A stretch of 8,307 bases of DNA, from assembly GCA_021792315.1 (NCBI GenBank), contig JAJYUX010000074.1, positions 1-8,307 of the forward strand, read 5' to 3'. The first letter of the stretch is position 1. Every line of letters begins with the position of its first letter. This DNA comes from an archaeon. GTDB taxonomy: Archaea; Thermoproteota; Nitrososphaeria; Nitrososphaerales; CADDZS01. Shown here piece by piece: positions 1 through 8,307 of the stretch. Made by a program: the position numbers and the translations under genes. The notes below the pieces were generated by a model. The model was not told the origin of the DNA and did no database searches. It saw nothing but the letters and a program-made list of their open reading frames with translations.

Positions 1-689
1 CTTACGAGCCTCTTGATCTTGTCATCCCTTTCCTTCGCCAAGTAAATGAGGAACACTGGCGCAAGTATCAGAGGATAGAGCTTCAAGGATATTGCCAGTC
101 CAAGAAAAATCCCAGCAAGCATGTCGCCCTTCCTGAACATCGAAAACACAGCAAGCATAATGAGAAGAACCGCTAGATTGTCCATCATTCCCCAAACTGA
201 GCCAATTATGATCGTAAATGGACTCAGGAGATAGGTTGCGGCCAGAGTGTTTCCCAATTTGCTCGGCTGAAGACTAGCTGACCATTTGTTTGTGTTTGAT
301 TGAAAAGAATGTGACTCTGAACGAGCGGCGGAGAGCTTCCATAGATAATATGCGACACCAAAATCTGCCAGAACAATTGGGAGTTTTATGAAGAAGATGT
401 AGAGATAGACACTTTTCGAAATTAAAGAAGAGATCCAATATGCAAAAGCTGTCCAGAGCCCCCAAAGAGGAGGATACCCAAGATGATTGTAAAGATCGTA
501 GGGTGACTTGCCCTCCACGATGTATTTCCCTGTGTTGATCCACACATTAAGATCAAATGGATGCCCCGTAAACGGCGCAACAGCAAGACGGATCGCCAAG
601 GCAACGACGATAATGACCACTGATCTTCTGATATTCGAAGAATCTCCTGTATGGAATAGATTTCCGAGACTTTCGTTCAGTTTCGCCAT
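1..689 (-). CDS. Polytopic GT-C / DUF2029 (GT87)-like glycosyltransferase, 3' end outside window
   Basis: A reading frame of 229 complete codons runs from an ATG at 689 off the left edge, so the C-terminus is missing. The protein is strongly hydrophobic, with membrane segments near residues 23-40, 75-92, 95-117, 150-183 and 190-216. Features of GT-C enzymes using polyprenyl-phosphate sugars are an Asp in the first external loop (HPFDLNVW, 43-50), GKSPYDLY (60-67), YPPLWGLW (72-79), SPFTIIIGSVWGMMDN (156-171) and SLKLYPLIL (201-209). This pattern resembles DUF2029/GT87 and PIG-M-like mannosyltransferases; sugar and acceptor cannot be read from sequence. Its start overlaps the end of the upstream GT2 gene by 13 bp, so the two are probably cotranscribed and coupled. 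No clear Shine-Dalgarno is present. The family call is from motif layout, not a search. Confidence 0.75.
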   Translation of the reverse strand, partial: MAKLNESLGNLFHTGDSSNIRRSVVIIVVALAIRLAVAPFTGHPFDLNVWINTGKYIVEGKSPYDLYNHLGYPPLWGLWTAFAYWISSLISKSVYLYIFFIKLPIVLADFGVAYYLWKLSAARSESHSFQSNTNKWSASLQPSKLGNTLAATYLLSPFTIIIGSVWGMMDNLAVLLIMLAVFSMFRKGDMLAGIFLGLAISLKLYPLILAPVFLIYLAKERDDKIKRLV

Positions 690-1594
690 TTGGCTGACAC
701 CGAAGGCGTCCAGCGATTGTTTGACCGATGCAGTTTGGCCATTATATGGGAAATTAGCTCTAACGTAATTAGGGCAAGAAAAGATGTAGCTTTGAATCTG
801 CCAGCTTTTTGCTCTTCGCGTACTTCCTGTTCGATTATATTGAAGGCAAGAAGAGGTTTCCTTACAATGATGAAACTCAAAACATCTGGAGAAACACCTA
901 GAATTTTTCTCAGTTGGTTGTGACCATTTATTATCCTAGCCCGCTGCCGCATCAATTCCGCGATACTTTCAGGCGGCCGGTTAAGCACTATCGATTCCCT
1001 GTCGTAAGATACATCAAAACCCTTTTGCTGAGCTCTAAGAACCATGTATGCATCATCGTTAACAATCCGAGATGGTAAAGTTTCAACGGCCTCCCTCTTG
1101 ATTGCAAACGCCTCTCCAGCATGTCCGTGTAGACCATTCGAGTTTTGAACAGACAAGGTTTTGTCGTGTAGCCCCCACATCGAATTGCTCATCTGCCCCG
1201 TGATAGTATGAATGCTGTTTACAGGTTTAGGGCGACAACTTACAACCCCAGTATTGCCTTGCAGTCGTTGTACCATGTGTTCGACGAATTCCCTTTGGGG
1301 AAGCCGAACATCGCCGCTCATTAGAAGTAGCGCATCTCCCCTCATCTGCTGAATCATTTTATTTATCGCTGAAGGTTTGCCTAGCCTGTCCGGTTCGATT
1401 ATCAGATGTAATCGCTCGTCCTTCTTTTCAAATTCTTTCACGTCGCGGACTGTGTTGTCGGTGCAGCCGCTCGCAACTACGAGAACCTCGCAGATTTTGT
1501 CGCATCCGTGTAGTTGCTGATTTACAACGTCATTCAAAGTCTCAGCAATGTTGTCACCATTATTGAAACAAGTTATTCCAACTGTTATCTGCAT
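677..1594 (-). CDS. Glycosyltransferase family 2 (GT-A fold), membrane-associated
   Basis: This 305-residue protein opens directly with the GT2 first strand, ITVGITCFNNGDNI (3-16). It continues with SGCTDN (42-47, in place of the usual DgSxD), GKPSAIN (72-78), a DxD-like SGDVRL (93-98), NDDAYM (179-184) and RQRARI (216-221, at the place of the QxxRW motif of processive enzymes). A C-terminal hydrophobic stretch (about 268-287) could associate with the membrane. The enzyme should transfer a sugar from a nucleotide- or polyprenyl-activated donor; substrate unknown. I chose the ATG at 1594 because a GA-rich ribosome site (gaagagagagac) precedes it and the domain starts there; the frame is open to a GTG at 1651. 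It leads an operon with the overlapping GT-C gene. Operator A and a TTAAAC box lie upstream, predicting a leader of about 85 nt. Confidence 0.9.
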   Translation of the reverse strand: MQITVGITCFNNGDNIAETLNDVVNQQLHGCDKICEVLVVASGCTDNTVRDVKEFEKKDERLHLIIEPDRLGKPSAINKMIQQMRGDALLLMSGDVRLPQREFVEHMVQRLQGNTGVVSCRPKPVNSIHTITGQMSNSMWGLHDKTLSVQNSNGLHGHAGEAFAIKREAVETLPSRIVNDDAYMVLRAQQKGFDVSYDRESIVLNRPPESIAELMRQRARIINGHNQLRKILGVSPDVLSFIIVRKPLLAFNIIEQEVREEQKAGRFKATSFLALITLELISHIMAKLHRSNNRWTPSVSAKWRN

Positions 1595-1700
1595 GTCTCT
1601 CTCTTCACAGATTGTCAATTCAAGTTGTGAAACAGTCTGACGAAGTCCCACAACGGACTCTCGTCATGCTGTTTTCAGAGACGATATTTCTCATTCTGAT

Positions 1701-1707
1701 GGTTTAA
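1701..1707 (-). promoter_or_regulatory. Candidate TATA-type box of the glycosyltransferase operon
   Basis: Read on the minus strand this is TTAAACC. It begins exactly 9 nt beyond the edge of operator A. Transcription would start near 1678. The box is only moderately TATA-like; the call rests mainly on the same spacing recurring at other copies of the operator. Confidence 0.4.
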
Positions 1708-1716
1708 GTGTAAGAC

Positions 1717-1740
1717 ACGATTTTCAGAAGTGATAATCGT
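1717..1740. promoter_or_regulatory. Operator site A (24-bp imperfect palindrome)
   Basis: The half-sites are ACGATTTTCAGA on the left and, read from the other strand, ACGATTATCACT on the right; 9 of 12 positions match. The same 24-bp framework (consensus half-site ACGATTATCAGA) recurs at 5377-5400 and 5405-5428. Site A lies between the minus-strand glycosyltransferase operon and the plus-strand gene remnant. A promoter-like box sits exactly 9 nt from each of its edges. The binding protein is not identifiable from the window. Confidence 0.65.
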
Positions 1741-1749
1741 GCCCCCAAC

Positions 1750-1757
1750 TTAAGTAA
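1750..1757 (+). promoter_or_regulatory. Candidate TATA-type box of the plus-strand gene remnant
   Basis: TTAAGTAA starts 9 nt after operator A on the plus strand. It is identical over 8 bases to the box that faces apbE at 5360-5367, which has the same 9-nt spacing from operator B. It would place a transcript start near 1780, ahead of the broken gene at 1785-2026. Confidence 0.4.
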
Positions 1758-1784
1758 AGTACTTCAACTGTCCAAGGGGGAGAA

Positions 1785-2026
1785 GAAGATGATTGGCACT
1801 TCCTAGAAGAACCATTGTGGTGAAGAATTAATGAAAAAGATCCATCTGGAAATGGGAAGTAGAGTGGGAAGCAGACGAACAGAAGCTTGCTGACGGGAGA
1901 GAAATCTATCAAATTGCTTCTTGGCTGGTTGACGAGAAGAAGTTCAAGCTTGCTGGAGAAGTCCCGGAAGAACGGTACAACGAACTCTCGTACAGATTCA
2001 AGAAGATGCAGATCGGCAGCCGGTAA
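1785..2026 (+). pseudogene. Decayed small gene of unknown family
   Basis: A coding-looking reading runs through this otherwise gene-free stretch but is broken. One frame reads EDDWHFLEEPLW, meets TGA at 1821-1823, continues RINEKDPSGNGK and stops at 1860-1862. The next frame takes over near 1850 with KWEVEWEADEQKLADGREIY and continues without interruption through IASWLVDEKKFKLAG and ERYNELSYRFKKMQ to a TAA at 2024-2026. That second segment is charged, of balanced composition and has no start codon of its own back to the TGA at 1832. An alternative is one frameshift after the ATG at 1831, which has a good ribosome site (GGTGA, 1819-1823, 7 nt upstream) and reads MKKIHLEMG. I do not recognise the family. 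A draft-sequence indel could mimic part of this decay, but the first model needs two lesions. Confidence 0.5.
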
Positions 2027-2069
2027 TTCAAATTGAAGCTTCTCCTAATCGCCACTCAACCGTGATACC

Positions 2070-2303
2070 TCAGTGTTGCCATCGCTCACTTCTTTTGCTA
2101 AAAATTCCAAGGATGAGTCCTAAAACAAGCGCAACGAGTAAAGCAATTATCACCAAGATCGCAGGAATTCCTGAGTCAGGATTGTACCTCGAATCCTGAT
2201 AGTCGTAGATGAATGATATCCAATTGTTGTCTTGGTCACTTGTCTGAGCGTTCGAAGAAAGATGAGGAGTAACCATTAAAGTGCTCAGGCCAATTAGAAA
2301 CAA
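2070..2303 (-). CDS. Small secreted single-pass membrane protein, unknown function; 5' end probably frameshifted
   Basis: The uninterrupted frame starts at a TTG (2303) and encodes 77 residues. It has a hydrophobic signal-like start (FLIGLSTLMV), a likely cleavage region near SSNAQT (16-21), a polar outward segment rich in Asp, Asn and Tyr (21-45), one transmembrane helix (about 46-68) and a basic end (SKRSER), giving an outside-to-inside C-terminal anchor. The TTG start leaves the signal peptide without its positive n-region. The next frame supplies one: a GTG at 2361 with GGTGG seven nt upstream reads RTSVKKFRTLQSRKLG and would fuse onto this frame if the CCCC run at 2311-2314 were one base shorter, giving 96-97 residues. 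It lies 139 bp downstream of the NosR-like gene on the same strand. No family is recognised. Confidence 0.55.
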   Translation of the reverse strand: MFLIGLSTLMVTPHLSSNAQTSDQDNNWISFIYDYQDSRYNPDSGIPAILVIIALLVALVLGLILGIFSKRSERWQH

Positions 2304-2392
2304 TATAGAGCCCCAGTTTCCGGCTTTGTAACGTTCTAAATTTCTTGACGGACGTCCTCACCCGAGCGCCACCAACAAATTATCGCGATTTG

Positions 2393-2400
2393 ATATTTTG
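2393..2400 (-). promoter_or_regulatory. Possible TATA-type box of the small membrane-protein gene
   Basis: The minus strand reads CAAAATAT about 35 nt ahead of the GTG at 2361, the preferred start if the frameshift model holds. It is AT-rich and correctly placed but otherwise unremarkable, so the gene could also be read through from the NosR-like operon. Confidence 0.25.
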
Positions 2401-2442
2401 TCTTTTTCCCTAATCCAGCATAATACAGAAAATGTAGTTGAG

Positions 2443-4206
2443 TCAACTAGTTTTCTTCACAAGTATTCTTTCTTGGGCGTAGTGAGGACAGATCCTCGTA
2501 TTGAGGTAGAGCTTCTCGCAACCCCTGCAATCCATGCACTCGAAAGCTGAGATGTGGTCGCCCTTGATTGCTTGGGGTTCGCATTGATTTGCGCAGATCA
2601 TACATCTCTTGCACTCTGGCCACCTCTTGATCTCGCGAATCCTCAGAGCACTGAGGAGCGCCATCCCCGCCCCTGCGGGGCAGATGTACTTGCAGTAGAA
2701 CCTGTGATAGAAGATTGAGATGCCAAGAATTAGTCCGAGGAAGACCCAAGCAAACGTGTCCCCGTTGAACAGAAACAGCGTACCAAATGGTTCGACTTGG
2801 TAGAGAAATGTGTTCTGTAGGATCCCGTATACCACAACCGCGAGCACGATGTATTTTGACCACCTAAGCTTAGACTGGTACTTTACAGGTATCTTGAATT
2901 TCACGGGAGACAATTTGTTCAAAATCTCTGTAAACGCTCCGAATGGACAGAGGTATCCGCAGTAGAACCTCCCCCAGAAAAGCGAAGTGACAAAAACTCC
3001 GCCATATAGGGCATACCAATACAAGTTCCTCCAGAAAGGTGGAAACATCAGATGTATGAAACTGTAAAAGTCCCCCATCGAGACCATGCGCACTGCGAAG
3101 AATCCGATGAGAAGGATCGAGAATGCCCACACTCCATACTTTATTCTATCGCTCTTTAACTCGAATCCGATTATCGCAGCGCCGAAAAGATAAGCCAGGG
3201 CGATTAGTGCAACTGTTGACTCATTATTCAATGAATCAATTGAACCAAATATGTTTAGGACCAATCCGCCGAGAATTGCAGCCTCTCCGAGAACAGAGCT
3301 ACTGGAGCCGGCCTTCAGTTGCTGTTGATAATCGGTGACTGCGATTCTACCCGCATCTCTGACGCCATCAATTACCCCCGAACTTGAATATGTCGCACCA
3401 GTGACTGGATTTACGTCTACTCCAATTTGTAATCGTTCAAACACACTCCGATTTATGAATGTGTTGAGCCATTGCTGAGTGATCCTGTAACCCCAAGAAT
3501 CAGGATTGTTGTAAACAAACAACCCCTTGATTGTTCCGGTCGTGTTGACATAGGATATCGTTCCGATCATACCATTGTAACCCCAGCAAGATTTCGGAGA
3601 GATGTCAGTAGTCAGATAGATCAACCCGACTGAAGTACTTCCTTGAGTCACTACATAGTACGGGATCTGAGTGGAGCTCTTCACAAAACTAACGTTACTT
3701 GAAGTCAGATTAAACCAGTTTCTGAAATTCACCATAGATATAGTGTACAGCTGATAGTTTGATGCAAAGGTGGAGCTTGTACTAGAAGACGCGCTGCTCG
3801 AAGTCGTAGAACTGGTGGTGCTATAGGTAGAAGTGCTCTGAGAGCTACTTGTGCTGCTTGATATGCTGAGAGTACTGGAAGCACTGGAGTTAGCAGACGA
3901 GCTAACTAAAGACGACGAACTTGTAGTGATCGAGTTGGAACTACTCGATTCTGACGTACTCGTTGAGATCGTGTTTGATGTCTCTCCGGAAGTAGCGCTG
4001 GAGTTGCTCGTCGAAGAGACAGAAGTGCTTACAGTGCTAGTTGTAACAGTGATATAACTAGTCGTAGGTTCGACTGTTTTTGTACCAAACCCGATCGAAG
4101 GGAAATCCTGTACCAAAGCATATCCAGTGATGAAAAAGAGAATGATGATTACGATGCCGACCCTAGTCTTTGCGAATTTTCGTGTGCTGTTGCGTTGATT
4201 AGACAC
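2443..4206 (-). CDS. NosR-like flavinylated membrane electron-transfer protein (FMN-binding domain, 6-7 TM, 4Fe-4S)
   Basis: The 587-residue protein has a basic start and anchor helix (15-32), a Ser/Thr-rich stalk (about 45-149), an FMN-binding domain (about 150-290) with the flavinylation motif NPVTGATYSS (266-275; acceptor Thr272), and hydrophobic segments near 305-322, 330-349, 357-373, 391-410, 450-468 and 484-500. CGYLCP (416-421) and CKYICP (505-510) follow two of them. Two cysteine clusters come last: C532xxC535xxC538xxxC542EP and C557xxC560xxC563 with C573P. In NosR-type proteins this order carries electrons between the membrane, cytoplasmic Fe-S clusters and an external covalent FMN. 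The GTG start at 4206 is set by AGGAGGA at 4213-4219. The gene follows apbE by 11 bp. The stalk is unusual. The final electron acceptor is unknown; canonical NosR serves N2O reductase, which is not seen here. Confidence 0.92.
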   Translation of the reverse strand: MSNQRNSTRKFAKTRVGIVIIILFFITGYALVQDFPSIGFGTKTVEPTTSYITVTTSTVSTSVSSTSNSSATSGETSNTISTSTSESSSSNSITTSSSSLVSSSANSSASSTLSISSSTSSSQSTSTYSTTSSTTSSSASSSTSSTFASNYQLYTISMVNFRNWFNLTSSNVSFVKSSTQIPYYVVTQGSTSVGLIYLTTDISPKSCWGYNGMIGTISYVNTTGTIKGLFVYNNPDSWGYRITQQWLNTFINRSVFERLQIGVDVNPVTGATYSSSGVIDGVRDAGRIAVTDYQQQLKAGSSSSVLGEAAILGGLVLNIFGSIDSLNNESTVALIALAYLFGAAIIGFELKSDRIKYGVWAFSILLIGFFAVRMVSMGDFYSFIHLMFPPFWRNLYWYALYGGVFVTSLFWGRFYCGYLCPFGAFTEILNKLSPVKFKIPVKYQSKLRWSKYIVLAVVVYGILQNTFLYQVEPFGTLFLFNGDTFAWVFLGLILGISIFYHRFYCKYICPAGAGMALLSALRIREIKRWPECKRCMICANQCEPQAIKGDHISAFECMDCRGCEKLYLNTRICPHYAQERILVKKTS

Positions 4207-4212
4207 TTGGAG

Positions 4213-4219
4213 TCCTCCT
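4213..4219 (-). promoter_or_regulatory. Strong Shine-Dalgarno of the NosR-like gene
   Basis: AGGAGGA on the minus strand, 6 nt ahead of the GTG at 4206. It overlaps the apbE stop codon (TAG, 4218-4220), so termination of apbE translation and initiation of the next gene are probably coupled. It decides the GTG start. Confidence 0.85.
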
Positions 4220-5258
4220 ATTTAGTCATGAGTTGCTTCATTCCTGATGACATCATGACTCCAGAGCTGTCTGTATAGAGTAGACACTCGGCCTGGAACG
4301 AATCCATGAGCCTCATAGCGTCGTTTGGACTCTCCACCATGAGAGCAACGCCAAGCGGATCGGAGAGCATCGAAGTCGAAGCGACCACTGTGGCACTATG
4401 TGAGAATAGTGGAGATCTCGCAGTAAAAGGGTCAATGATGTGATAGTAGTCCTTGTTTGTGGTATAGTAGTCTTCATAGTCGCCCGAAGTTGCGACAGCC
4501 TGGTCTTTCAGATAAAGTGTGCCAATAACATTCGTGGGGGTTATTGGATCCACGACTCCAACCTCCCATGGAGATCCATTCGCCCTAGATCCTATTGTGG
4601 CAAGAGTACCGCCGAAGTTGACATATGCAGACTTGATTCCCCTTGATTTGAGTAGAGCTATTGACTCGTCAAGTATGTAACCGGTTGCTATTCCATCTAG
4701 AGTAACACCCATTCCAGGTTTGCTGAATGAAACCATACTGTTGGACGTGCTGACATCTTCGTATCCAATCAATTGCAGAGCAGAATCAAACTGCGAATCT
4801 GAAGGAAATGGTTGACCTGATAGATAGCCTTGAAGCAGGTCAAGGACCGGTTTCACCGTGACGTCAAAACTTCCTTCCGTTGATTCGGAGAAGTGTGTAG
4901 CGGCCTCCATTACGTTCAGGAGGTCGGGAGATGGGTCTTCCTGCGTCCCGCTCTGATTAAGACTGTAGAGATCCGTCCCTCCCGGAAACCTTGTCAATAC
5001 TGTTCCTAGACCGTTTATGCTTCCCGCAACGCTGTCAAAAATCTGGGTCGCGAGATCCGAGGATATTGCATCGTCAATTTGGATAGTAACAACTGTTCCA
5101 ATTGCATTAAACGAGGTTGAGTATGAAGTGTTCCGGTTTTGTCCGACAAAGCGGGGAGAGATCCTGTTTCCAATCAGAGGGATGGAGAGAGCAAGTCCCC
5201 CGACGGCCGCTAGTTTCAGAAAGTCTCTTCTGCGAAGATTCGATAGCCTCTGGTTCAT
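4218..5258 (-). CDS. apbE: FAD:protein FMN transferase (ApbE), Tat-exported
   Basis: The 346-residue protein starts with a Tat signal: RRRDFLKL (9-16) followed by a hydrophobic stretch (17-30), with no lipobox Cys. ApbE landmarks follow: GSFDVTVKPVLDL (129-141), LDGIATGYILDE (187-198), YVNFGGTLATIG (212-223), AVATSGDYEDYY (254-265), YYHIIDPFTARSP (271-283) and SMLSDPLGVAL (296-306). ApbE moves FMN from FAD onto a Thr of a (S/T)GAT motif, outside the cytoplasm and with Mg2+. The only candidate substrate in the window is the NosR-like protein encoded 11 bp downstream. One oddity is Thr in GIATG where most ApbE proteins have Lys (GIAKG). The ATG at 5258 is chosen because the Tat motif follows it; no good ribosome site precedes it. 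Operator B and a TTAAGTAA box lie about 105 bp upstream. Confidence 0.95.
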   Translation of the reverse strand: MNQRLSNLRRRDFLKLAAVGGLALSIPLIGNRISPRFVGQNRNTSYSTSFNAIGTVVTIQIDDAISSDLATQIFDSVAGSINGLGTVLTRFPGGTDLYSLNQSGTQEDPSPDLLNVMEAATHFSESTEGSFDVTVKPVLDLLQGYLSGQPFPSDSQFDSALQLIGYEDVSTSNSMVSFSKPGMGVTLDGIATGYILDESIALLKSRGIKSAYVNFGGTLATIGSRANGSPWEVGVVDPITPTNVIGTLYLKDQAVATSGDYEDYYTTNKDYYHIIDPFTARSPLFSHSATVVASTSMLSDPLGVALMVESPNDAMRLMDSFQAECLLYTDSSGVMMSSGMKQLMTK

Positions 5259-5296
5259 TTGTAGGTTCTTTATCCTATCTTGGATGCGCTCCTATT

Positions 5297-5313
5297 CCGA
5301 ATTTGTCGTTCGG
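5297..5313. promoter_or_regulatory. Small inverted repeat in the apbE leader
   Basis: CCGAA and TTCGG arms (5 bp) flank a 7-nt loop, 39-55 nt ahead of the apbE start and within its predicted leader. It could form a weak hairpin in the mRNA. There is no terminator-like T tract and no riboswitch class that I recognise. Confidence 0.2.
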
Positions 5314-5359
5314 ATCATGGTGCCATACTCACTATGCTGGATGAATGAATCTCCACGGG

Positions 5360-5367
5360 TTACTTAA
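5360..5367 (-). promoter_or_regulatory. Candidate TATA-type box of the apbE operon
   Basis: The minus strand reads TTAAGTAA, starting exactly 9 nt beyond operator B. The same octamer at the same distance follows operator A on the plus strand. It predicts a transcript start near 5337 and a leader of about 79 nt, similar to that of the GT2 operon. Confidence 0.5.
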
Positions 5368-5376
5368 GACGGAAAG

Positions 5377-5400
5377 ACGATTATCAGAACTGATAATGAA
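5377..5400. promoter_or_regulatory. Operator site B
   Basis: The core ATTATCAG-AA-CTGATAAT is a perfect inverted repeat with 8-bp arms, and the left half-site is the full ACGATTATCAGA. This is the copy nearest apbE, with its promoter box 9 nt beyond the left edge. Its centre is 28 bp from the centre of site C, not quite three helical turns. Confidence 0.7.
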
Positions 5401-5404
5401 CTGA

Positions 5405-5428
5405 GTTATTCTCTGAATTGATAATCGT
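5405..5428. promoter_or_regulatory. Operator site C
   Basis: The right half-site, read from the other strand, is ACGATTATCAAT, but the left half (GTTATTCTCTGA) is degenerate. This copy faces the plus-strand gene at 5473. With site B it forms a tandem pair in the 214-bp divergent promoter region. Confidence 0.55.
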
Positions 5429-5472: not shown

Positions 5473-6054
5473 GTGATCCTGGTGCTTTTTGGAATCGATT
5501 CAACCACTTTATTGATTCTCTTTTCCCTCATCCTCACCGTCATTCTTGTCATCTTTGTAGTTCTTCAGTTTCGATGGTCGATGGCCATTGGCAGGGGCAG
5601 TGAGAAGATCAGTGGGGCAATAAAGGAGCTGCAGGAAGTTACAAAAGCAATCGCACAGAATACTTCGGCTTTGACCGATACGACGCGTAATCTCTCTTCT
5701 GCGACGGCATCACTTTCGATCAGCGCGCAGTCTCTGGCTAGGATAGAGGCCGAGCCAAAACTGGAGCTTGTAGAAAGAAAGAAGGATTTGGGACTGGGAG
5801 GTATCGAATTTGATCTGATTAACAATGGAAAGGGAAGCGCCCACTCCGTCAAAATTACACCGACATCTGCGAAGGGGGCAAAACTGGGAGTTTCATTCCT
5901 TGGTGTGCAACGAAATGACATCAACGTAGGAGAGGCAAGGAAATATCTCCTGACATCTGTGAAACAAGGCGACCTGATCAGCTTGTATGTGGAATTCAAA
6001 GATTCACTAGGTGGATCTTGCCTGCCGAAAACCTTCACGGTGGATACTAGCTAG
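5473..6054 (+). CDS. Membrane-anchored coiled-coil protein with C-terminal beta domain, unknown function
   Basis: The 193-residue protein has one N-terminal membrane helix (about 11-34), then a Ser/Thr/Ala-rich heptad-like segment (about 42-92, with ISGAIKELQEVTKAI and AQSLARIEAEP) likely to form a coiled coil. A C-terminal domain (95-190) has strand patterns such as IEFDLINNGKGSAHSVKI and LISLYVEFKD, like an immunoglobulin-type fold. The positive residues after the helix (RW, GRGSEK) suggest that the bulk of the protein is cytoplasmic; the opposite topology is not excluded. The GTG at 5473 is the first start after the in-frame stop at 5428; a second GTG lies at 5482. No Shine-Dalgarno is seen, fitting a very short leader. 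It shares the divergent operator region with apbE and is followed after 24 bp by the repeat protein. I do not recognise a named family. Confidence 0.8.
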   Translation: MILVLFGIDSTTLLILFSLILTVILVIFVVLQFRWSMAIGRGSEKISGAIKELQEVTKAIAQNTSALTDTTRNLSSATASLSISAQSLARIEAEPKLELVERKKDLGLGGIEFDLINNGKGSAHSVKITPTSAKGAKLGVSFLGVQRNDINVGEARKYLLTSVKQGDLISLYVEFKDSLGGSCLPKTFTVDTS

Positions 6055-6078: not shown

Positions 6079-6933
6079 ATGGAAATGAACCAAGACAATC
6101 TGCAAAAGGACAAGACATCTGGTGAAACCGAAGTCACTGTCCAGAAGATGGCCGAGGGAAGCGTGGAGGGGCAGGTGTCCTGCATCGAGGGACCTGTCAC
6201 TAACGCGTCAGTCTCGATCGGTATGATCAGTACATTCACTGATGCGACCGGCAACTTCGTGCTTGAACATCTCCCCCCTGGCATAGGAAAAGTGAGAGTC
6301 AATTCACCACTAAGCAGATTCTATGACGCAAGCACTGACGTCTTAGTGGAAGCTGATCAACGGAAGAATCTGCCGATATTCCTAAACGAGATAACAGGCG
6401 TGCTCGAGGGAACAATAACTGACGAGATTGGCAAACCTTTGGTCGGAGCGGAAGTATCAGGCATGTTCCGGCTGGGTAAAGAGGCAATAACCACAAAAAC
6501 AGACGAAAAAGGCGATTACATCTTTCAGGACATCCCCCGTGGGGTGTATTATATCAGAGCCAAGGCGCAAGGATTCATGACGGAAGGTGCCGATGTGAAC
6601 ATTACAGCGGGAGGCAATATCGAATCGAATTTCAAACTCAAGGCTGCCAATCTTTCCATCTCAGGTATCGTAACCGCAAAGGAAGGTACCGTTGTTGACG
6701 GCGAACTCTATCTGATGAGGAAGGGAGTAATCGTGACCCGCACAAACATCTCAAAAGGAAGCGTTGGCAAGTACTCGTTCCCAGACTTGGTTCCTGACTA
6801 CTACGAGATTGGGATTATAGCTCCTGGATACTTCGCAAATGGTTGGGGAGGCAAGGTTGAGAAACCAGAGGTTGTCAACTTCAAACTGGAAGTCATGCCA
6901 GAAACAAACGCCGATTCATCTTTCGTCCACTGA
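6079..6933 (+). CDS. Three-repeat carboxypeptidase-regulatory-like (CarboxypepD_reg / Cna-B type) protein
   Basis: The 284-residue protein contains three beta-sandwich repeats of about 75-80 residues, near 27-102, 107-187 and 191-271. Each opens with a G-x-V/I strand (VEGQVSCIEG, LEGTITDEIG, ISGIVTAKEG) and has the typical turn before a strand and 'GxY' end: TDATGNFVLEHLPPG (54-68), TDEKGDYIFQDIPRGVYYIR (141-160) and GKYSFPDLVPDYYEIGI (230-246). Such domains bind proteins or carbohydrates or act as rigid spacers and are usually extracellular. Here there is no signal peptide or membrane helix: the start is polar and acidic (MEMNQDNLQKDKTSGETE), so the protein is predicted cytoplasmic or exported by an unseen route. 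A second Met lies at 6085. It forms an operon with the membrane-anchored gene 24 bp upstream and converges on the CPBP gene, 23 bp away. Confidence 0.85.
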   Translation: MEMNQDNLQKDKTSGETEVTVQKMAEGSVEGQVSCIEGPVTNASVSIGMISTFTDATGNFVLEHLPPGIGKVRVNSPLSRFYDASTDVLVEADQRKNLPIFLNEITGVLEGTITDEIGKPLVGAEVSGMFRLGKEAITTKTDEKGDYIFQDIPRGVYYIRAKAQGFMTEGADVNITAGGNIESNFKLKAANLSISGIVTAKEGTVVDGELYLMRKGVIVTRTNISKGSVGKYSFPDLVPDYYEIGIIAPGYFANGWGGKVEKPEVVNFKLEVMPETNADSSFVH

Positions 6934-7919: not shown

Positions 7920-7967
7920 CCCTCAATGAAATGCCCTATTCCACGTTTTGAGAATCGTCTTGTCTTC

Positions 7968-7975
7968 TTTTATAC
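7968..7975 (+). promoter_or_regulatory. TATA box of the TorD-like gene (leaderless)
   Basis: TTTTATAC is centred about 27 nt ahead of the ATG at 7999. This is the normal archaeal distance from TATA box to transcript start, so the mRNA probably begins at or next to the start codon. No Shine-Dalgarno is present, which agrees. Confidence 0.65.
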
Positions 7976-7998: not shown

Positions 7999-8307
7999 AT
8001 GGCGGTCAACTTGTCCGACAAATCAATTTCTGTTGAAGAAATTCGAAGGGCCACTATGACCAGAGGGACTTTGTACAGGGTTCTATCAAGGGGCTTTAGC
8101 CTCGAAATCGACGAAGCTTTTCTTGAATGGATCGTCCTGCTCAATCCGACGATAAAACAACTTGCCATTCATACCGACAGTAAAGAGTTCAAGAAAGGAA
8201 GCGACGGTCTGGATGCTTTCTCTGAAAGAGTAAAACGAGAATACGAAAAAGACAAGGCATTGTTTTTGCAGAATCCTGCCGCTGAATACGCGTCGCTCTT
8301 CCTGAAT
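7999..8307 (+). CDS. TorD/NarJ-family chaperone for a molybdenum enzyme, N-terminal part
   Basis: The first 103 residues are present and the frame is open at the right edge. The protein looks all-helical and soluble. It has an early RGTLYRVLSRGFSLEIDEAF segment (22-41), matching the 'xxLYxxLSxxF' first helix of the family, and ends in PAAEYASLFLN (93-103), matching the 'EYaxLF' helix of TorD/DmsD/NarJ (PF02613). Such chaperones bind the Tat signal and assist cofactor loading of DMSO-reductase-family or nitrate-reductase-family catalytic subunits, usually encoded next to them. A molybdopterin oxidoreductase is therefore expected beyond 8307, or upstream of the window in a related cluster. The ATG is supported by the TATA box 27 nt upstream. 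The family call rests on two motifs and length so far, so it is probable rather than certain. Confidence 0.72.
   Translation, partial: MAVNLSDKSISVEEIRRATMTRGTLYRVLSRGFSLEIDEAFLEWIVLLNPTIKQLAIHTDSKEFKKGSDGLDAFSERVKREYEKDKALFLQNPAAEYASLFLN

Follow-up and report, generated by a model that had tools for sequence, protein, structure and literature searches.

A palindromic operator just upstream of TATA boxes in Nitrososphaerales and a four-cysteine HTH_10 protein as its candidate regulator

Which regulator reads a 24-bp palindrome that recurs three times in one short stretch of archaeal DNA, and how far does its regulon extend? The stretch (the window; all 8,307 nt of contig JAJYUX010000074.1, from a member of the Nitrososphaerales) carries the palindrome next to a glycosyltransferase gene, an apbE operon and a coiled-coil operon, and a preliminary description had read the three copies as a local regulon of one dimeric regulator that ties surface glycosylation to electron transfer. 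The copies, to which no strand is assigned, are site A (1717..1740, 22-mer core 1718-1739), site B (5377..5400, facing apbE) and site C (5405..5428, facing the coiled-coil operon). We confirm that all three are real operator-type sites and find that the operator is not local but genome-wide and family-wide. With a probability of roughly 0.58, we regard it as the site at which a global activator acts. This activator, a four-cysteine Bat-like helix-turn-helix (HTH) protein of the HTH_10 family that binds as a homodimer, would run an anaerobic or energy-limited programme and activate its own gene.

The three sites stand where they had been placed, and scored 29.4 (A), 26.4 (B) and 18.1 (C) with the full position weight matrix and 29.1, 26.2 and 18.1 with a matrix trained without the window; the top score in 40 Markov shuffles of the window, 12.1, was below all of them. 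A palindrome search recovered both A (2 mismatches) and B (3 mismatches) and returned any match in 0 of 200 dinucleotide shuffles, and a repeat finder listed A, B and C as the top direct-repeat family. Site A is 2 mismatches away from a perfect palindrome, and site B indeed contains a perfect 8+2+8 inverted repeat (ATTATCAG-AA-CTGATAAT at 5380-5397). The common half-site ACGATTATCAGA proposed earlier held up as a shared palindrome but not as an exact sequence, since A has ACGATTTTCAGA and the left side of C is degenerate. All three sites lie in promoter regions and none in a plausible gene; nothing supports as a gene the 62-amino-acid open reading frame (ORF) that overlaps most of site A. A weak fourth site with a degenerate left half, D (7936..7957, + strand), scored 8.5, which by score alone is within chance, but two features back it: the TATA-like box that follows is spaced as usual, and a related locus has a site (L001:7298-7319) in front of its syntenic TorD gene.

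This related locus, L001 (JASHOD010000125.1, Nitrososphaerales archaeon JOPF014), encodes an ApbE protein with 67% identity to that of the window and was the sole archaeal locus among 80 ApbE loci in named genome contigs; two further proteins, P0003 and P0009, share 77% and 66% identity with the window ApbE and carry the source label Nitrososphaerales archaeon. Genome-wide tests were run on the 3.7 Mb relative G001, the genome of L001, and on other genomes of its family (nine genomes, G001-G009) and order (300 genomes). Conservation before apbE, suggested earlier as a check, was found in L001, where two syntenic sites correspond to B (L001:9905-9926) and C (L001:9875-9896), a result that rests on one orthologue; an apbE orthologue at E 1e-50 or better was present in one of the 300 order genomes.

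Pattern scans detected the operator across G001, the family and part of the order. Its consensus, ACGATTMTCA-WWWW-TGAKAATCGT, was drawn from 128 sites with up to 2 mismatches in 80 stretches of the nine family genomes, most of them picked for holding sites, together with the window and L001. At a limit of 3 mismatches, G001 contains 109 copies of the 22-mer CGATTMTCA-N4-TGAKAATCG, compared with 12 of the reversed pattern, and a stricter 20-mer core was present in 9/9 family genomes with 0 for the reversed control. Distinct sites in the fetched stretches numbered 48 in G001, 22 in G009, 18 in G004, 15 in G008, 7 in G005, 6 in G006, 5 in G007, 3 in G003 and 1 in G002. In the order, an exact pattern used earlier matched 37 of the 300 genomes, 24 of them once, and these included all nine family genomes. 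The motif is not spread at random over genes and promoters: ORFs of 150 codons or more make up 71% of the bases but contain only 6 of the 128 site centres. At a limit of 3 mismatches, 91 sites were counted in the window, L001 and the first 40 stretches; an ORF start followed within 260 nt on the correct strand for 83 of them, while 19 lay inside some ORF, mostly short ones from a crude gene caller. Thus, one dimer-type operator in promoter regions stands, but the local glycosylation-electron transfer regulon is ruled out by the genome-wide sites, and the glycosyltransferase is just one more target.

The position of the operator relative to the core promoter is regular. A box within 2 mismatches of TTTAAATA starts 7-11 nt past the site on at least one side of 69 of the 125 unique sites (on both sides of 5), and the TATA offsets show a peak, with 46 at 9 nt, 18 at 8 nt and no more than 6 at each of the remaining distances; as the box consensus came from a subset of the very sites scored, the control here is the histogram over offsets and not the count. 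For 164 site-gene pairs, chosen for a TATA box at 6-12 nt and a start within 160 nt, the median distance from site to start codon was 53 nt. Because the TATA box mostly starts 8-9 nt past the operator, the operator ends just upstream of the TFB recognition element (BRE). Archaeal activators typically bind upstream of the BRE, while repressors act by interference at BRE/TATA or from sites downstream of it (PMC5512572, PMC4158304). A site upstream of BRE/TATA at a fixed distance, with its peak at 9 nt, is therefore the geometry expected of an archaeal activator, and suggests, as far as sequence can, that the bound protein activates.

Predicted targets, called by profile at the Pfam and NCBIfam cut-offs, fall into several metabolic classes. 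Pfam assigned two molybdopterin oxidoreductases, TorD-like chaperones, TatA, TatC, cytochrome bd subunit I and, just above cut-off, a hydrogenase maturation protease, as well as the [2Fe-2S] and flavin adenine dinucleotide (FAD) subunits of a molybdenum hydroxylase. It also called Usp, CBS, a 4Fe-4S ferredoxin, glutamate dehydrogenase (GDH), an Nramp transporter and an Fe-S nucleoside triphosphatase, along with an amino-acid permease, proline dehydrogenase, a class IV aminotransferase, a carboxyltransferase, AllG and a carbamoyltransferase; purine catabolism is among the target classes. NCBIfam added carbamate kinase, formate-tetrahydrofolate ligase and AsnA above cut-off, and DmsA-like (L144) and adenine-deaminase-like calls below it. 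Clusters of homologous downstream genes recur between genomes, with Usp in five, CBS in five and ferredoxin in four. This mix of targets suggests an anaerobic or energy-limited metabolism.

A candidate regulator lies on the same contig of G001 as apbE (C38, 22,485 bases): L150:484-1161 encodes an HTH_10 protein (PF04967, 59.2 bits at a cut-off of 23.1) and has an operator 50 nt upstream. In a search of 44 genomes, a site precedes the match by 41-58 nt in each of the eight best relatives with DNA (L221-L228). An order-wide profile search matched 55 of the 300 genomes, 33 of them above 200 bits. In a tree of 70 HTH_10 proteins (66 different; quick method), 30 formed one clade (clade 1) with a Shimodaira-Hasegawa-like approximate likelihood ratio test support of 99, and with a site score threshold of about 10 the operator was present in the promoters of 27 of these 30 members, compared with a single, weak site among the 40 other HTH_10 proteins, the remaining 39 of which had none. 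Excluded from the tree were HTH_10 pieces shorter than 120 amino acids (L269, L275, L280, L281), a broken, site-bearing copy in G007 (L222), duplicate retrievals of a gene and several HTH_10 genes, in G001 and elsewhere, for which no upstream DNA was fetched; an earlier tree of 63 rows, before L145:10958 and six more were added, gave 27/30 and 0/33. The operator is followed by a TATA box at 8-11 nt in 23 of the 27 site-bearing clade-1 promoters.

The regulator and the operator also tend to occur together across the order. Several genomes beyond the focal family have the site in the form GATTTCCA-N4-TGGAAATCGT, and with a later pattern the clade-1 promoter was the genome's one match in G097, G062, G073, G160, G172, G112, G121 and G190. 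This later pattern matched 28 of the 33 genomes with a full-length A2 match above 200 bits versus 33 of the 267 others (Fisher p 1.2e-17), an enrichment that is partly circular as the pattern was chosen after seeing clade-1 promoters; the earlier exact pattern gave 15/33 versus 22/267 (p 3e-7), and both tests treat genomes without correction for relatedness.

Four cysteines (DCK and C-x9-C-x2-C) are invariant in 12 close relatives of the candidate. HTH_10 was the only domain that Pfam found in the 225-amino-acid protein, with no GAF or PAS domain of the Bat type. A structural model of modest confidence (predicted local distance difference test score 76.9, predicted template modelling score 0.55) has two alpha/beta units followed by the C-terminal HTH. 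In a PDB fold search, the C-terminal part resembled sigma region 4 and response-regulator HTH domains, while the sensor part had no match at E of 0.001 or below (best 0.017, not credible). The protein would work like Bat, though it is not filed as Bat.

Several further observations concern the clade-1 genes. Of the 27 site-bearing clade-1 promoters (for example L294, L296 and L285), 22 contain a second palindrome, CCTAACNNGTTAGG (up to 3 mismatches), close to the start codon, and 19 have a copy about 80 nt upstream of that position, so that the copies flank operator and TATA box; it may be the paired site of another regulator. The broken copy in G007 (C78:19402-20059) has an in-frame stop or frame break, and an unbroken second copy lies at C188. 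An ApbE protein (P0010) and a clade-1 regulator (P0122) from other samples both have a longest contig of 23,573 bases and may share it. A 96-amino-acid HTH_10 fragment in G009 (L275, L170:253-497) overlaps a perfect operator.

In the mechanism that we propose, a homodimer of the four-cysteine regulator would bind CGATTMTCA-N4-TGAKAATCG just upstream of BRE/TATA and help TBP and TFB onto the promoter. The four cysteines might hold an Fe-S cluster or act as a thiol/metal redox sensor. Besides its own gene, the regulator would activate respiration and catabolism of the anaerobic or energy-limited kind, and the window's ApbE-flavinylated NosR-like conduit would be part of this programme. Autoregulation with few targets looks like the ancestral state, from which the operator may have multiplied within this Nitrososphaerales family until, in the richest genomes, tens of promoters carried it.

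A number of findings weigh against this proposal. Five of the nine family genomes (G002, G003, G005, G008, G009) have the operator and lack the clade-1 regulator, and gross incompleteness is not evident from helicase-domain counts, a weak measure, which are even over the nine genomes (7-10 each). G003, G005, G008 and G009 carry a sister clade of the IQLQF type (clade 2), G002 carries neither clade, and G145, G251 and G297, again with neither, have 3-5 matches each. Three of the 30 clade-1 members have no site (the second copies in G112 and G154 and a divergent protein of G148), G056 and G127 have clade-1 genes and their single match elsewhere, and the weak site outside the clade (score 13.8) precedes L145:10958-11641 of G001. 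In the window, site C has a poor TATA box. The amino-acid and purine genes among the targets would also fit a starvation signal.

The main rival, which we consider doubtful, follows from the four family genomes with sites and only clade 2: the operator may be read mainly by the sister HTH_10 clade, which has a CxxC motif, or by both clades, with clade 1 as one autoregulated member of a shared-operator network. Consistent with this, the recognition helices of the two clades are nearly identical (STxSEILRRAE-type), a clade-2 gene and site-bearing Usp and CBS genes stand on one contig in each of G001 (C139), G009 (C65) and G005 (C44), and G157 and G081, which lie outside the family and have clade 2 without clade 1, show 3 and 4 matches (the latter in three places). 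Yet none of eight clade-2 promoters carries a site, and G004 has 18 matches and no clade-2 match in the order-wide profile search. As a self-regulated protein, the IQLQF-type HTH_10 is ruled out by the same 0/8 promoters. A regulator of another HTH family, with the clade-1 gene as only one conserved target, is unlikely. The operator also stands in front of Lrp-, Tfx-, PadR- and CopG-like genes of G001, as well as of a winged-helix gene of G006 and G007, but a clade-1 promoter is the only match in the eight genomes named above. The Lrp-like protein, the only one of these that was compared across genomes, had close relatives in G001 alone among 44 genomes, which rules out L149:1973-2614 as the regulator. 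This cysteine-rich Lrp-like gene and a divergent Tfx-like gene (L149:1973-3331) share one operator.

A repressor site would also agree with the sequence alone, as repressors too can bind the promoter region (PMC5512572), but we judge this improbable: the end of the site lies 8-9 nt ahead of the TATA box, where archaeal activators sit, and repressors interfere at BRE/TATA or bind downstream (PMC5512572, PMC4158304). A chance likeness of three AT-rich intergenic palindromes, favoured by nothing but the short length of the window, is refuted by the shuffles, the reversed-motif controls, the occurrence in 9/9 family genomes and the TATA spacing, and can practically be dismissed. An autoactivated programme under the four-cysteine clade-1 protein thus remains our preferred reading.

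In the window, site A faces a family 2 glycosyltransferase (677..1651, - strand, PF00535; alternative start possible at about 1594), its predicted target, across a TATA-like box CTTAAACC 9 nt from the site (1701..1708, -). On its other side, a TATA-like box CTTAAGTA lies at 9 nt, an offset as at other sites (1749..1756, +), and no intact gene was recognised downstream of it; an open frame past this box (1835-2026, +) has no start codon, is preceded by two in-frame stops and may be a decayed or mis-assembled small gene. Site B has the TATA box CTTAAGTA at 9 nt (5361..5368, -), and in the apbE/coiled-coil intergenic region of L001 the apbE-facing site has the identical box at equal spacing. Downstream lies the gene of an ApbE-type FAD:protein flavin mononucleotide (FMN) transferase (4218..5258, -; PF02424, E 3.6e-60), in whose sequence we read a twin-arginine leader, RRRDFLK (5214-5258, -); the tatA and tatC promoters of G001 carry the operator too. 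It is followed by an FMN-binding and 4Fe-4S membrane protein with a Ser-rich linker (2443..4206, -; PF04205, PF12801), which we take to be NosR/NapH-like, with TGATY in its FMN-binding part presumably the flavin site. Site C faces a protein with a hydrophobic stretch at its N terminus and the look of a coiled coil (5473..6054, +), which has no Pfam family and is conserved in L001 (9244-9822), and a CarboxypepD_reg-like repeat protein (6079..6933, +; PF13620) that is probably in the same operon. Site D has a TATA-like box CTTTTATA at 9 nt (7967..7974, +) before a TorD-like chaperone gene (ATG at 7999; 7999..8307, +) cut by the window end; the cut piece itself had no Pfam match, and its L001 orthologue matched PF02613 at E 7.5e-29. 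The ApbE gene, the FMN-binding/4Fe-4S protein gene, the coiled-coil operon and the TorD-like gene would all belong to the programme of the operator.

Motif and candidate regulator are now defined well enough as a pair for a direct binding test, and the pair predicts which genes of these uncultured archaea respond together. It also offers a natural case of regulon expansion, from one self-regulated site in several related genomes to as many as 48 sites in the richest, and puts an electron conduit flavinylated by ApbE under a programme that is probably tied to low oxygen. Tentatively, a compact cysteine-cluster HTH_10 protein could be an undescribed global redox regulator of Nitrososphaerales that would have started out as a self-regulating switch and come to control tens of promoters in one family, in a role like that of FNR/ArcA in bacteria. 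In the literature searched, we found no description of this motif or regulator and no described motif-regulator pair for Nitrososphaeria.

In bacteria, FNR/ANR and Rex control redox/oxygen regulons through the palindromes TTGAT-N4-ATCAA and TTGTGAA-N4-TTCACAA, and their known targets include cytochrome bd, Usp and molybdo-enzymes; their half-sites differ from those of the operator. The Fur box, which the operator had been said to resemble slightly, has the letters GATAAT/ATTATC in common with it; its half-sites stand in reverse arrangement, and the operator has a 4-bp gap. Bat, the bacterioopsin activator, is listed as an HTH_10 protein in an architecture table (PMC5847659) and has GAF and PAS domains (PMC3184054). 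In Halobacterium, its regulatory site (UAS) lies on the 5' side of bop, two other genes have sites nearby, and induction occurs at low oxygen (PMC3184054, PMC1447603). The candidate has the HTH_10 DNA-binding domain in common with Bat; its four conserved cysteines, its long and palindromic operator and the much greater number of sites set it apart. DmsR of Halobacterium, with a Bat-like C-terminal HTH, positively controls the anaerobically induced dms operon for dimethyl sulphoxide reductase (PMC1447603), and here a DmsA-like molybdo-oxidoreductase, the L144 call below the NCBIfam cut-off, is a predicted target. The low-oxygen and anaerobic action of Bat and DmsR provides a precedent for the proposed regulator (PMC3184054, PMC1447603); for DmsR one operon is named in the portion of PMC1447603 consulted, whereas the operator described here precedes tens of promoters in the richest genomes.

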